From NCBI RefSeq assembly GCF_002288825.1, contig NZ_NSLI01000004.1, forward strand, positions 556,501-620,500: 64,000 nucleotides of DNA. Reading direction: 5' to 3'. This document shows positions 58,057 to 62,683 of the stretch, in pieces. The notes under the pieces were generated by a model. It made no database searches, had not been told where the DNA came from, and saw only the letters and a list, made by a program, of their open reading frames with translations. Position 1 is the first letter of the stretch. Every line of letters starts with the position of its first letter. The translations under genes were made by a program, and so were the position numbers. The DNA is from Sphingomonas lenta (GTDB taxonomy: Bacteria > Pseudomonadota > Alphaproteobacteria > Sphingomonadales > Sphingomonadaceae).

Positions 58057-58085
58057 CACATAGCTGCGGCCGGCCCCGCTTGCAA
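58057..58085 (-). promoter_or_regulatory. Sigma70-like promoter for rplK-rplA
   Basis: Leftward: TTGCAA (58085-58080), 17-base spacer, TATGTG (58062-58057), about 90 bases before rplK. It lies at the exact junction where the operon is interrupted by rightward genes. Confidence 0.6.
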
Positions 58086-58114
58086 TGTTGGAGATCCCTT
58101 GCTCCACCCTGGCG

Positions 58115-59032
58115 ATGCCGCGCCGAACCTGCCCCCGCACGCAAGCGCTCGAGAACCAGTCCTTCCTCCGAGCCCTGCGCGAGACCGGCAACGCGCGCGA
58201 GGCCGCCAGGGCCGTCGGCCTGTCGCGCACCCGCTTCACCAAGCGCCGCGCCGCCGACCCCGCCTTCGCCGCCGAGTGGGATGCCGCGCTCGTGCTGGCG
58301 CAGGCCGGCCTCAAGGGCCTGCGCATGGCCGCCGCCGCGAGCCCAAGCGCGCTCCGCCCCACGCCCGTGCGCGTCGGCGGGCAGGGCAAGGTCCAGCTCC
58401 GCCGCCCGGCCGCGAACGCCAAGCTCACCCGCGATCACGAGCAGCGCTTCCTGCTGGCGCTGTCCGCGTCCGCCAACGTCCGCCTCGCCAGCGCCGCCGC
58501 CGGCCTCAGCCACGCCACCTTCTACGCGCGCAAGCGCCGCTCCCGCGCCTTCGCCCGCGAGTGGCGCGCGGCGCTTGAACAGGGCTATGCCCGCGTCGAG
58601 ATGGCCGCCGTCGCCGCCGCGGACCCCGACTCCTATCGGGACGACGCGTGGTCGCACAATCACCCGCCGGAGCTCCCGCCCATGACGGCGGCCCAGGCGC
58701 TCCAGCTCCTCTACCTCCACCAGAAGGAGGTGCGGCTCGCCCACGAGCCCGCCGCGGTCAAGCGCCGCCGCGGCGAGCCCGACGAGGTCTATTGGGAGCG
58801 CGTCCATGCCATCCGCGAAGCGCGCGCCGACGCCGCGCGCGAGGACTTCCGCCGCGCGGAGGCGATGCGCCAGGTGCATGGGGAAGGGTCGCCGTATCAC
58901 CGGTGGGTGGTGATGCCCGATTTGTCGCAGGTGGGCGGGTGGTCAAAGGCGGACCCTGACAAGCCGGCGCACGATCCGGGGCGGGCGCTGTTCGGCGGGT
59001 GGCGGATACGGGATTGGGAGGAGGGTCAGTGA
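58115..59032 (+). CDS. Tandem helix-turn-helix protein, terminase-small-subunit-like
   Basis: About 305 residues with two similar N-terminal units: QSFLRALRETGNAREAARAV-GLSRTRF (about residues 11-55) and QRFLLALSASANVRLASAAA-GLSHATFYARKRR (about 110-160). Each ends in an AxEW element. Such HTH units resemble those of phage terminase small subunits and transposase-like DNA binders. The C-terminal part is charged and Trp-rich. I choose the ATG at 58115; an ATG at 58085 lies inside the opposing rplK promoter. The function is unknown; it could be phage-derived or a domesticated regulator. Confidence 0.78.
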   Translation: MPRRTCPRTQALENQSFLRALRETGNAREAARAVGLSRTRFTKRRAADPAFAAEWDAALVLAQAGLKGLRMAAAASPSALRPTPVRVGGQGKVQLRRPAANAKLTRDHEQRFLLALSASANVRLASAAAGLSHATFYARKRRSRAFAREWRAALEQGYARVEMAAVAAADPDSYRDDAWSHNHPPELPPMTAAQALQLLYLHQKEVRLAHEPAAVKRRRGEPDEVYWERVHAIREARADAAREDFRRAEAMRQVHGEGSPYHRWVVMPDLSQVGGWSKADPDKPAHDPGRALFGGWRIRDWEEGQ

Positions 59033-59344
59033 TAATCTTGACCCATTTGCAGCCGCTCAGAGGAGTTGGAGCGCTCCCCGAAAGCGGACACAGGTTCAGC
59101 TTCTCGTTTTCTGCTCAGGTAGGCCGCGGGAGCGACTCGCGCGCAGCAGTCAACAGACGAGCAGAGAGGACGACGTGCCACAGTCATGAAGCAGAGCGGG
59201 TATCCGCCAAATTACACAGAAAAGTTCGGGTTTGTAGCGTGCTTCGCCGTCAATCCCCGGTCTGCTCTTCCAAACGGAAAGCCTGAAAACCGCTGTTGGT
59301 CTCTTTGCTCGTTCGGCCTAAACTACGCAGCTGGCGGTGGCGAG
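59033..59344. other. Upstream region of the CD-NTase/SLATT cassette
   Basis: About 310 bases without a convincing gene; base composition drops here relative to the flanking HTH gene, marking the left edge of the lower-GC cassette. A candidate promoter lies at 59296-59324. An open frame from 59186 leads into the first cassette gene, but its codons before 59345 do not look coding. Confidence 0.45.
59296..59324 (+). promoter_or_regulatory. Candidate promoter of the CD-NTase/SLATT cassette
   Basis: TTGGTC (59296-59301), 17-base spacer and TAAACT (59319-59324), placing a start site about 15 bases before the ATG at 59345. It is a moderate match and the only plausible one seen in this stretch. Confidence 0.35.
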
Positions 59345-59932
59345 ATGAGGCGCAGGATGTTCGACGGCTTCCCAAAATCCAAGTTTAACATCGTAACGTC
59401 CGAAGGCGTGTTGCGCGGAACCACGGAGGCCATTGCCACTGGCAAGGAAATCATCGTTCCTGATCAGAACGTGATCATTCAACCGGGTGACGAGATGCGT
59501 AGGACGCTGCCGAATGGAACGGACGAGACATTCGACGTGATTGATCCTGTGTTCATGCAGGAGACGTTTGGCATCCCAGGCCACTTCCAAGTGAAGGTTC
59601 GCAAAAAGGGAATGTTTCCCCACGGCACGGGAGGAAACTACACAATAAGCGTCACGGGGCCGAACTCGCGCGTCAACATCGGATCGACCGATCAATCTAC
59701 TAACATAAACATTGACCAGAGTGTCATCTCGAAAGTACGCCAGGCTATTACTGCACAAGTTGAGGATAACGCAGAGCGGGCTGCGCTTCTCAGCGCTTTG
59801 GCGGACATGGAAAGTGCGGGGGACAAGTCCGCTTTGAGTGCTGCTTACCAGCGGTTCATCTCCTCGGCTGCCAACCACATGAGCGTCATCGCGCCGTTCC
59901 TGCCCGCGCTTGGCCAGATGTTCGGCGGCTGA
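59345..59932 (+). CDS. Unknown protein, first gene of the CD-NTase/SLATT cassette
   Basis: About 195 residues starting MRRRMFDGFPKSKFNIVTSEG. The N-terminal part is beta-rich (EIIVPDQNVIIQPGDEMRRT, PGHFQVKVRKKGMFP). A glycine/asparagine-rich motif, SVTGPNSRVNIGSTDQSTN (about residues 106-124), is followed by a helical C-terminal domain (VISKVRQAITAQVEDNAERA, AAYQRFISSAANHMSVIAPF). I do not recognise a named family, though I have the impression that the SxTGPNxRVNInSTD pattern occurs in other uncharacterised proteins. The start could be the ATG at 59357, which has GAGG upstream. The next gene begins one base after its stop. It is lower in GC than the chromosome. Confidence 0.75.
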   Translation: MRRRMFDGFPKSKFNIVTSEGVLRGTTEAIATGKEIIVPDQNVIIQPGDEMRRTLPNGTDETFDVIDPVFMQETFGIPGHFQVKVRKKGMFPHGTGGNYTISVTGPNSRVNIGSTDQSTNINIDQSVISKVRQAITAQVEDNAERAALLSALADMESAGDKSALSAAYQRFISSAANHMSVIAPFLPALGQMFGG

Positions 59933-59933
59933 G

Positions 59934-60341
59934 ATGGACCTCAAGACATTCGTGTCGGAAACGCTGACGCAGATCGTGTCGGGCATAAGTGAAGCTCAGC
60001 GAAACATTGCCAATCTGCGCACCAATGCGGCGGTGAACCCCGCTAGCGTATCGTCCGCATCGAGCCGCCAGCTTACGGGTGCGAGACCTGTGGAGTTCGA
60101 CGTGGCGCTCACTGTGGTGGAGCGATCCGCTTCCACGCAGGAGGATAGTGAAGCTCGTTCTTCCGGCATGATCTCCGTCGTGCGCTCTTCCGCTGAGACC
60201 GGCACCGTGGCCACGGACCATGAAGCGACCAGCCAAGAGGCGGTTAGCCGAGTACGCTTCTCGGTTATGCTATCTCAGCCCGGCGACGTGGACGTCTATC
60301 AGGAGCCAAATTTCGCCGAATTAGGCAGGCGGCTCGCGTAG
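59934..60341 (+). CDS. Small trypco2-like protein, second gene of the cassette
   Basis: About 135 residues: an N-terminal helix (MDLKTFVSETLTQIVSGISEAQ), then PVEFDVALTVVERS, a glycine/serine-rich loop region and the closing strand SRVRFSVMLSQPGDVD. This helix-strand-loop-strand layout resembles trypco2-type domains described in NTP-dependent conflict systems; the match is by pattern only. Its ATG follows the previous stop as TGAGATG, so the two are coupled. The small size and beta-barrel-like layout suggest an adaptor or sensor role, not an enzyme. Confidence 0.72.
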   Translation: MDLKTFVSETLTQIVSGISEAQRNIANLRTNAAVNPASVSSASSRQLTGARPVEFDVALTVVERSASTQEDSEARSSGMISVVRSSAETGTVATDHEATSQEAVSRVRFSVMLSQPGDVDVYQEPNFAELGRRLA

Positions 60342-60397: not shown

Positions 60398-61279
60398 ATG
60401 AGCGTGGCAGACAACTTCCGAGCTTTCAGAGCGAACTACCTGATCCCATCGGCGACGGTGTCGAACATTTCTTATCGCTACAAGCGGATCACCAGGCAGC
60501 TCAATAAAGACTTCTGGAACACCGAATCAGAGACGGCGCACAGCCTCTACGTCGGCTCTTATGGACGCGACACCGCTGCCAATGGCGTGAGCGATCTAGA
60601 CGTGGCGTTCACGCTGCCGAATTCTGTTTATCAGAAATACAATGGTTACGCTGGCAACGGTCAGTCTGCGCTTCTCCAAGCCGTCCGTGATTCAATCGGC
60701 CGCACCTACGCGAACTCGTATGTCGGAGCGGACGGGCAGGTCGTTGCGATTAACTTCACAGACGGAATACGGTTCGAGATTTTGCCTGTATTCGTGAACA
60801 CAGAAAACACGTTCACGTTCGCTGATACCAATAACGGCGGTAGTTGGAAGGTGTGCGACCCGCGTGGAGAGATGAGTTTTTTCTCTGCACGCGACAGCGT
60901 GACAGCCAACGGAAACTTGAAGGCGATTGGTCGAATGGCTCGTATCTGGCGCGATCGCCATTCAGTGCCCATGAGCGGGATGCTTATCGACACGCTCGCG
61001 TACCAGTGGATCAGCGACTGGGCCCACCGGGACAAGTCGTACCTCTACCATGATTACCTAGTTCGCGACTTCATGCTTTATCTCTCGCAGATACCTTCGA
61101 CCCAGACCTACTGGCGCGCGCCGGGTAGCGGATCATACGTTTACAAGAAGGGCAACTTCCAAACCGCTGCGGCGACCGCGTACCAGGCCGCGCTGAGCGC
61201 TATCGACCACGAGGCCAATGAACGGCCTGCGACTGCCCGGAATAAGTGGAGGGAAATCTTTGGCCCAACTTACCCCTGA
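60398..61279 (+). CDS. CD-NTase-like (SMODS) nucleotidyltransferase
   Basis: About 293 residues. The polymerase-beta-type catalytic core is intact: GSYGRDTAANG (the G-S helix turn), the metal-binding pair in VSDLDVAF and a third acidic residue in GIRFEILPVF. This is the arrangement of SMODS/CD-NTase enzymes that make cyclic di- or trinucleotides when phage infection is sensed. The C-terminal half is helical (LKAIGRMARIWRDRH). Its 3' end overlaps the SLATT gene. There is no HORMA, TRIP13, E1/E2 or JAB gene beside it. The nucleotide product cannot be told from sequence. Confidence 0.85.
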   Translation: MSVADNFRAFRANYLIPSATVSNISYRYKRITRQLNKDFWNTESETAHSLYVGSYGRDTAANGVSDLDVAFTLPNSVYQKYNGYAGNGQSALLQAVRDSIGRTYANSYVGADGQVVAINFTDGIRFEILPVFVNTENTFTFADTNNGGSWKVCDPRGEMSFFSARDSVTANGNLKAIGRMARIWRDRHSVPMSGMLIDTLAYQWISDWAHRDKSYLYHDYLVRDFMLYLSQIPSTQTYWRAPGSGSYVYKKGNFQTAAATAYQAALSAIDHEANERPATARNKWREIFGPTYP

Positions 61280-61862
61280 GATGGCCGCCCTTGATGCACT
61301 TGAGGGGCAAATCCGCGAGTGTTTTGGGCGCGTGGTATATTCGCACAAAACCCATGAGAAGCAGGGCGACTTGTGCGCTGCGACGCTGCGTCGTTTCAAG
61401 ATCGCTCAGATAGCTCTCGCGGCTTTCACTACCTCTGGAACCCTGGCTATCCTTTTCACGGATGACTTCAGGCTGAAATTGATTACCGCGTTGGTTTCTC
61501 TGATCACACTTTTCGTCTCGGGTTACATGAAGGGGTTCGACCCCGGCGCGGCGGCGCAGAAGCACCGCGACACGGCTGCCGATCTTTGGGCAATCCGCGA
61601 GTCATATCTTTCGCTGCTCACTGATTTTGCGGGCGGTGCGATTAGCGAGGATTTAGCCCGCGAGCGTCGCGACAATCTCCAAGCGGCACTCGCCGCCATC
61701 TATAAGTCAGCGCCAGGAACTACACCGAAGGCTTACGGGAAGGCGCAGAAAGGCCTTCAGCAGCAGGAAGATTATACCTTCAATCCAGGCGAGATAGACA
61801 AGTTCTTGCCGTCAGCGTTGAAACGAAGCTCGCCCACCGCGGCTGCTGAGCCAGACCGATGA
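61260..61862 (+). CDS. SLATT domain two-TM protein (putative CBASS effector)
   Basis: About 200 residues. The pattern HEKQGDLCAATLRRFKIAQI, two membrane helices at about residues 46-67 and 74-92, and KHRDTAADLWAIRESYLSLL after them fit the SLATT (SMODS-associated 2TM) family. SLATT proteins are predicted to form pores or damage the membrane when a cyclic nucleotide is sensed. The best start is a TTG at 61260-61262 with GGAGGG six bases upstream; it overlaps the CD-NTase stop by 20 bases. An ATG at 61218 lies deep in the CD-NTase gene. The tail is charged and disordered. Confidence 0.85.
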   Translation: MAQLTPEMAALDALEGQIRECFGRVVYSHKTHEKQGDLCAATLRRFKIAQIALAAFTTSGTLAILFTDDFRLKLITALVSLITLFVSGYMKGFDPGAAAQKHRDTAADLWAIRESYLSLLTDFAGGAISEDLARERRDNLQAALAAIYKSAPGTTPKAYGKAQKGLQQQEDYTFNPGEIDKFLPSALKRSSPTAAAEPDR

Positions 61863-62046: not shown

Positions 62047-62415
62047 TTACTCCGCCGCGACCCCGAAATACTCTGCTAGCTTGATCAGCTCCACGTCCTC
62101 GCTCCACAGCATCACGCCCGGCCGGAGCCGCGCGGAGGCGAGCAGGTTGGCGTCCACGTAACCGATCTTCCGCTCGTATAGGAACTCGGTCTCAATCAGC
62201 GCCAGCACCGCGTCGGGCTCCGCGACCGGGGCTCGGGGCAGGGCGCGCATGGCGTCCAGCAGCTCCCATCGGTCGTCCAGGCGACCCAGCATCAGCTCCG
62301 CGGTGACGAGCGGGTGGGTGAGCACCCGCCGATCGCGGAGCAGGTTCCTCAGCATGAGAGAGGGGCGGCGCAGGTGCTTGGCCCAGACCGAGCTGTCGAC
62401 GATGACCGGCCCCAT
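62047..62415 (-). CDS. PIN domain VapC-like toxin
   Basis: This 122-residue PIN domain has the four acidic active-site residues visible: Asp in VIVDSSVWAKH, Glu in LVTAELMLG, Asp in IGYVDANLLASA and Asp in LWSEDVELIK. VapC toxins cut RNA, often tRNA. The ATG begins one base after the upstream antitoxin stop (TGAGATG), typical of a toxin-antitoxin pair. It lies next to the cassette in the segment separating nusG from rplK. Confidence 0.9.
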   Translation of the reverse strand: MGPVIVDSSVWAKHLRRPSLMLRNLLRDRRVLTHPLVTAELMLGRLDDRWELLDAMRALPRAPVAEPDAVLALIETEFLYERKIGYVDANLLASARLRPGVMLWSEDVELIKLAEYFGVAAE

Positions 62416-62416
62416 C

Positions 62417-62683
62417 TCATTCGGGCCTGCGGCGCGGCCCCACGCTGGCCTCCGGGTCCGTCCCGCCCAGCGCCACCAGCCGCTCGATCGAATCGTGCTC
62501 GAACGGCAGCCGCAACTGGTCGCGCTCGGCTTCCAGCGCTCCGTGCAGCGCCGTGTGGATGTGCCGCGCCACCTCGCGCCGGGCGTCCTCCCGCAGGCGC
62601 GGCGACGGCACGGTGAGCGCTACCTTCGCCCAGGTGGGCGCGCCGTCCAGCGCGTCGGCGATCAGGTCGGGGGTGATGGTCAT
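62417..62683 (-). CDS. Putative antitoxin (DUF6771-like)
   Basis: This 88-residue helical protein begins MTITPDLIADALDGAPTWAK and continues VALTVPSPRLREDARREVARHI. It directly precedes the PIN toxin, with one base between genes. The opening matches DUF6771-type small proteins that I recall from sphingomonads. It has no AbrB or ribbon-helix-helix motif typical of VapB, so the antitoxin role is inferred from position and coupling. Confidence 0.72.
   Translation of the reverse strand: MTITPDLIADALDGAPTWAKVALTVPSPRLREDARREVARHIHTALHGALEAERDQLRLPFEHDSIERLVALGGTDPEASVGPRRRPE

Follow-up and report, generated by a model that had tools for sequence, protein, structure and literature searches.

A gene next to a type I CBASS pair in Sphingomonas lenta encodes a domain with a predicted phage stopper-like fold and a tail common to AbiTii proteins

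Results

In the 64,000-nucleotide stretch of Sphingomonas lenta DNA analysed here (the window), four codirectional genes on the forward strand, g1 to g4, form a block flanked on one side by what the translations suggest to be rplK/rplA and on the other by what is presumably nusG. The first gene, g1 (59345..59932), encodes a protein of 195 aa in which a predicted stopper-like beta domain is followed by a Gly/Asn motif and a helical bundle. After a gap of 1 bp comes g2 (59934..60341), which encodes a Trypco2-related small protein of 135 aa, and after a gap of 56 bp g3 (60398..61279), a CD-NTase gene (SMODS, PF18144, E 2e-45); g4 (61260..61862), the gene of a SLATT_4 2TM effector (PF18186, E 2e-63), overlaps g3 from an inferred TTG start, as in relatives, and its ORF is open also from ATG 61218. 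The GC content of the four genes is 0.55-0.60 and their GC3 0.63-0.69, against a GC3 of 0.90-0.95 in the six flanking genes measured, so the block has probably been acquired. Promoter and terminator counts within it are not above those of shuffles (no promoter-like site, with a mean of 1.4 in shuffles), and the repeats of the region are short, with two copies each. We also note two features of the surroundings: an ORF upstream of the island (58085-59032) that has weak helix-turn-helix matches and is GC-rich like the host, and a PIN-domain gene adjoining a DUF6771 gene (62047-62683, reverse strand), possibly a toxin-antitoxin pair.

The g1 ORF runs from an ATG at 59345 to a TGA at 59930-59932. 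Its frame is open upstream as far as an ATG at 59186, which would give 248 aa, but 59345 or the alternative start at 59357 is likelier because the homologues start at about Met1-Met5 of the window protein. That g1 is more than a chance ORF is indicated by tblastn matches on plasmids, by viral loci, by full-length matches in other genomes and by the residues that are invariant in an alignment of 19 sequences (R109, V110, N111, S114, D116, S118 and N120). An AF2 monomer model, for which the input alignment also held 19 sequences (mean pLDDT 79.5), has strands within residues 12-87 (pLDDT ~90) and four helices within residues 125-191; residues 91-119, including the motif, are below 50. The protein is accordingly described here as an N-domain (residues 5-92; 59357..59620), the motif GPNSRVNIGSTD (residues 105-116; 59657..59692), which is of low confidence in the monomer model and common to AbiTii C-termini, and a C-terminal four-helix bundle (residues 125-191; 59717..59917) within the stretch common to AbiTii protein tails. 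A sequence-only reading of the locus had described just such a beta-rich N-terminus, Gly/Asn motif and helical C-terminal domain, and had seen no recognised function in them. Both descriptions stand: g1 has no Pfam family above cut-off and no NCBIfam or PADLOC match, and the family that it does match, phrog_16834 (E 6e-30), is of unknown function. We found no description of the g1 family in the portions consulted of the open-licence PMC literature on AbiTii, Trypco2, tail-assembly interference and head closure in defence, and no published defence activity for any g1 homologue.

Structure searches with the predicted models point to proteins of the phage neck. With VIA-align, for which a best Z of 7 to 8 is typical of models without a clear match, the g1 model reached Z 10.4 against the Chi neck (2.5 A over 85 residues), with values of 9.3 for the phiXacJX1 connector and a lactococcal baseplate protein, 8.8 for the Milano neck, 8.7 for a GTA virion and 8.2 for the SPP1 connector. 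Nine of its first 11 rows are labelled as phage or GTA virion proteins (one being a baseplate protein), and the other two are bacterial structural-genomics proteins without a phage label. A second model was made of the N-domain alone of a homologue 28% identical to the window protein (locus L024; pLDDT 90.0), from an alignment in which the window protein is also a row. Every one of the 14 top rows for this model is a phage neck, connector or portal entry (Z 10.3 to 7.3); two of them, 8k37 and 8xow, are lambda entries with the gpFII sequence, in each of which the stopper chain was assigned by length. The first unrelated row, number 15, is the PilZ protein MotI (Z 7.3). On these models, the g1 N-domain likely has the phage head-to-tail stopper fold, with Z values of 7.5 to 10.4 over 75-86 residues for the Chi and Milano neck proteins, the SPP1 connector and lambda gpFII, and it is this match between predicted and known structures that is new here. 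Unlike those stoppers, g1 is fused to a motif and a helical bundle, is an accessory gene outside the head genes, and has no detectable sequence similarity to them.

No sequence link between the N-domain and head-closure proteins was found with PHROGs, Pfam or hhalign. When the 19 members were scanned, phrog_16834 was the only PHROG matched by all, without membership of a head-tail family, and no head-tail family was among the Pfam families matched. Alignment of the g1 family with lambda gpFII by hhalign gave a probability of 0.1%, which is uninformative because the template alignment is shallow and nearly invariant (Neff 1.0), and a family-profile sequence search of the PDB gave no meaningful match (best E 0.016, a lectin construct). 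Foldseek returned no E-value reaching 0.001 for either the g1 model or the L024 N-domain, for which the PilZ domain 4rt0_C (E 0.042) came just ahead of the Chi neck protein (E 0.049); a BFVD search gave a mixed list, including some head-tail joining proteins, with no E-value at or below 0.001.

Undetected sequence homology to head-closure families and weak Foldseek E-values are what would be expected if g1 had reached a common small beta barrel independently and used it to bind an unrelated ligand in some other role, such as plasmid or prophage maintenance. The PilZ and chymotrypsin rows (Z 6 to 7.5) also fit such convergence, as they lie level with the lower neck rows, about three Z below the best. 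We regard it as rather unlikely, given that the models of two divergent members both lead to neck proteins, with all 14 of the highest rows taken by these in the case of the isolated domain, and that the best Z of 10.3-10.4 exceeds the 7 to 8 usual for models without a clear match. A half-trypsin barrel was also considered for the N-domain, an attractive candidate because passages of PMC7159879 report that Trypco2 co-occurs with trypsins; it was rejected, chymotrypsinogen (Z 7.5) falling behind the best neck proteins.

From about residue 99 on, g1 is common to AbiTii proteins (five proteins, blastp E 1e-17 to 1e-9), and the five tail-only proteins recovered in our search of the order are all AbiTii by Pfam. 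The likeness concerns the C-terminal motif and helical tail, which are not part of the Pfam definition; the AbiTii domain itself (PF18864) has no match in g1, a difference between the two, and none was found in the window's own genome. Two g1 homologues have AbiTii neighbours (PF18864 E 5e-36 in L054 and 8e-11 in L055, where the protein is cut at its N-terminus). These AbiTii genes (L054:1559-2263 and L055:8620-9069) are convergent with the g1 homologue and end exactly at a near-identical motif, with no bundle after it: the AbiTii proteins end in NSRVNLNSTDNSAN(I/M)AD and the adjacent g1 homologues have NSRVNINSTDNSINISSD. Among 4650 six-frame ORFs from the loci examined, a regular expression for the motif found two ORFs beyond the g1-profile matches, both AbiTii (0 in one shuffle), and in the window g1 is the one ORF found to bear the motif. 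A further protein, from Acidobacteria (L053:7503-8315), joins an unrelated N-terminus to a tail that shares 49% identity with the g1 tail.

In the g1 family the C-terminal helix is rich in Gly, Ala and Ile, with a best 19-residue Kyte-Doolittle mean of 0.88-1.72 in the last 80 residues of the 19 members. Such a helix, the same tail on AbiTii proteins and the finding that g1 homologues are, by eye, mostly lone genes would all suit a stand-alone abortive-infection effector, whose barrel binds some other trigger and whose bundle damages the membrane through its hydrophobic C-terminal helix. We judge this unlikely, if deserving of serious attention: such modest hydrophobicity can be explained by the usual packing of helices, and the specific stopper-like fold would be left unused.

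The coupling of g1 to a trypco2-like gene, proposed in the sequence-only reading, is borne out by the 1-bp gap and by the recurrence of the pair in one viral contig (L059, the same as L067), in which the homologues are 51% (g1) and 31% (g2) identical to those of the window and the g2 homologue starts 6 bp after the g1 homologue; the Trypco2 label, on the other hand, holds for the family and not for the window protein. In the g2 family PF19631 (Trypco2) is matched by 3/8 relatives at E 0.01 and 4/8 at E 10 (best 7.1e-6), and the window protein has no match at either threshold; no trypsin-like peptidase is among the seven window genes scanned. The recurrence of the pair indicates that g1-g2 is a unit, and its recurrence without a CBASS of the g3-g4 type that the unit does not need one. 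No further pairs were found, which makes two in all with that of the window, and a g2 profile matched in one of 30 g1-homologue loci (L067). No g2 was found on plasmids with either query, and g2 relatives without g1 occur in genome G124 (L044) and in L058. In the latter a Trypco2-related gene lies directly downstream of a RhuM-family gene (L058:4908-6366; PF13310, E 1e-74), possibly as a two-gene unit.

The distribution of g1 across plasmids, viral loci and a few genomes indicates a patchy and mobile gene. Searches with tblastn matched 46 plasmid records, all below 60% identity, five of them at 80% coverage or more and 41 typed conjugative; with the L059 g1 as query, 219 plasmid records match. 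A g1 profile scan gave 19 viral loci, and a search of genome contigs five loci, one of them tail-only. Full-length g1 was found in four of 385 genomes of the class (its own included), with tail-only matches in two more, and among 296 genomes of the order in its own genome only, with five others matching the C-terminal part alone; 298 genomes of the family held the window's own g1 plus five tail-only matches.

For the neighbourhoods we counted 30 homologue loci, excluding the window: 17 viral contigs, six plasmid stretches (from six of the 46 records) and seven chromosomal stretches. All but L030, which is without the first quarter, cover nearly all of g1. Duplicates were left out (L015, the same as L014; L019 and L021, the same as L018; L033-L035, short copies of L041-L043; and L059, the same as L067), as were a partial homologue from a Cronobacter phage (L052), the tail-only L053 and the AbiTii loci. 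About 11 of the 30 come from related prophages, Pseudomonas-like by inference, so the independent events number fewer than 30, and in several cases (L014, L028, L054 and L055 among them) the contig runs out at a distance of 0.5-5 kb from g1, where the absence of a neighbour carries little weight. Neighbour families were surveyed over 146 ORFs of 90 to 900 aa, those closest to g1 and up to five from each locus; the 25 commonest families were listed, so that a single CD-NTase could escape this survey. Gene names first assigned by eye were confirmed with Pfam.

As judged by eye, g1 homologues mostly stand alone, whether in a prophage, on a plasmid or in an accessory region, and on prophage-like contigs such a lone gene typically has phage genes on both sides. 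A tail sheath gene lies nearby, as a separate gene, in four of the 30 loci (L024, L025, L026 and L028), and DNA methylase genes are found near the homologues of other prophage-like loci. Elsewhere the homologue adjoins a type ISP restriction system (a Phaeobacter plasmid) or a DUF2397 gene (Hyphomicrobium), or faces an AbiTii gene in convergent orientation (in Martelella and in one genome of the Rhodobacteraceae). Exceptions to lone accessory placement are L042, with housekeeping-type genes on both sides, and L008, where a gene of unknown family (166 aa) follows in the same direction after 44 bp. We also observed an extra N-terminal domain of ~165-185 residues ahead of the g1 module in L009, L010, L042 and L056; by eye it is common to L010 and L056, and no Pfam family covers that of L010.

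Neither in the window nor in the viral loci examined does g1 lie inside a head-tail morphogenesis cluster. This placement, outside the head genes, and the additional motif and bundle argue against the reading of g1 as a factor of a satellite or prophage that furthers its own transmission, by substituting for or obstructing the neck of a helper or competitor phage, and does not serve host defence, as do the homologues on plasmids and chromosomes and the CBASS that adjoins g1 in the window. The stopper fold and frequent carriage on prophage-like contigs would suit such a factor, and interference by phage satellites is known (in passages of PMC10884400); overall we think it improbable.

The other two genes of the block are readily classified. 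g3 matches the PADLOC cyclase (E 5e-128) and g4 the PADLOC 2TM effector (E 2e-75), and the GSYGR and SDLD of g3, which align with those of relatives, are presumably the CD-NTase active-site residues. By these sequence criteria g3-g4 is an ordinary two-gene type I CBASS, a SMODS CD-NTase with an adjacent SLATT/2TM effector, as its relatives indicate: in each of the five examined (43-53% identity) from 100 plasmid records at E 1e-40, a SLATT gene begins before the CD-NTase gene has ended, and neither g1 nor g2 is near the pair within the stretches inspected. In the Planococcus relative, the reading frame of g3 is broken into two parts, and this place has no annotation.

The sequence-only reading had correctly placed a trypco2-like gene and a CD-NTase beside g1, and had gone on to tie g1 to the CD-NTase, as a possible sensor of the trigger or binder of the product. 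That tie is not supported. Homologues standing mostly alone, which that reading had itself named as the finding that would refute it, are largely what the neighbourhoods show, with the partner gene in one of the 30 and a CD-NTase or SLATT of the g3-g4 clade in none (profiles at E 10, built from one clade, so that other CD-NTase clades could escape). In the structure searches PilZ chains come among the groups that score next best, and PilZ (cyclic-di-GMP) domains have the motifs RxxxR and [DN]xSxxG; these occur in one and three of the 19 family members, respectively, and together in none, and we rejected PilZ-type nucleotide binding by g1. The membership of g1 in the CBASS was likewise rejected on the neighbourhood counts, 0/30 and 5/5, and a role for it there is unlikely.

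The fuller version of this idea, in which the CBASS includes g1 and g2 as accessories and g1 senses phage or binds a nucleotide and so licenses the CD-NTase, draws on the codirectional order and close spacing of the four genes (1 bp, 56 bp and an overlap), on the one lowered GC3 throughout, on a block without a promoter-like site (a weak point, given the shuffles) and on the listing of CBASS, in PMC10884400, among systems that recognise a phage capsid protein. Against it stand the absence of CD-NTase and SLATT genes of this clade from all 30 loci, the five CBASS relatives without g1 and g2, the g1-g2 pair in L059/L067 without such a CBASS, and the missing PilZ motifs, and we give it little credence. 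Adjacency to a CBASS is insufficient to make a gene part of it. g1 may still be a sensor, though of some phage structure and not of what the CD-NTase makes.

Discussion

The explanation that we tentatively prefer, while holding it to be well short of probable, is that g1 and g2 form an accessory module directed against phages, which acts on the assembly of the phage neck and uses the motif for signalling, and that it was acquired beside an independent CBASS, g3-g4. It is supported by the neck-like fold in two models, the mobile lifestyle, the tail common to AbiTii, the g1-g2 pair without a CD-NTase and the GC3 of an acquired block. It is weakened by the missing sequence link to head-closure families, the weak Foldseek E-values and the commonness of the small barrel shape, as well as by there being only two g1-g2 pairs, no second motif ORF in the window and no AbiTii in the genome.

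Under this explanation, the module would be carried by mobile elements and would have come to lie next to a two-gene type I CBASS. Late in infection, the barrel of g1 would dock on the assembling neck, either on the portal/adaptor ring or on its partners, and the crowding of several g1 copies on the ring would let the motifs assemble, the motif probably being ordered only upon self-assembly. The assembled motifs might then either poison head-tail joining or switch on the helical bundle and partner proteins, which could be AbiTii in some loci and, in the window, g2 as an adaptor; Trypco2 is called an adapter domain in passages of PMC10907252. Both the engagement of the neck and the defence function of g1 are inferred. 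Motif-driven assembly is proposed by analogy, in that the matching motifs of g1 and AbiTii resemble a pattern described in part of PMC12261475, where collocated genes encode receptor and effector proteins with matching amyloid signalling motifs.

Mobile-element proteins that block virion assembly have precedents in Tab (PMC10884400) and Tai (PMC11364771), which are tail-assembly-blocking defences of prophages and PICIs. The likeness is confined to the proposed way of working, in which virion assembly is the point of attack of a small gene from a mobile element, and the targets differ, being the neck as proposed for g1 and the tape measure or fibre for theirs. The g1 profile has no match among the 259 ORFs of phi80, the one Tai-bearing phage searched. 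The precedent suggests that g1 may work likewise; it is not a member on present evidence. In P2-like phages a defence hotspot lies between gpA and gpQ, according to PMC9122126, and the g1 homologues near tail sheath genes occupy another place. Finally, g3-g4 is a member of the type I CBASS with a SLATT/2TM effector, beside which g1-g2 is not found in the five relatives examined.

A more specific and more doubtful proposal is that g1 is a stopper mimic that acts as an immune sensor, in which the neck ring would template g1 copies, their motifs would nucleate a signalling assembly that recruits effectors such as AbiTii, and the tail would serve as a general plug between phage-sensing heads and effectors. 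Were this so, a component of the virion itself would have become an immune sensor or a decoy, and the neck would take its place beside the capsid, tail tube and tail fibre among the recognised signals of late infection. The unexplained tail of AbiTii proteins would then gain a testable role, as a signalling connector.
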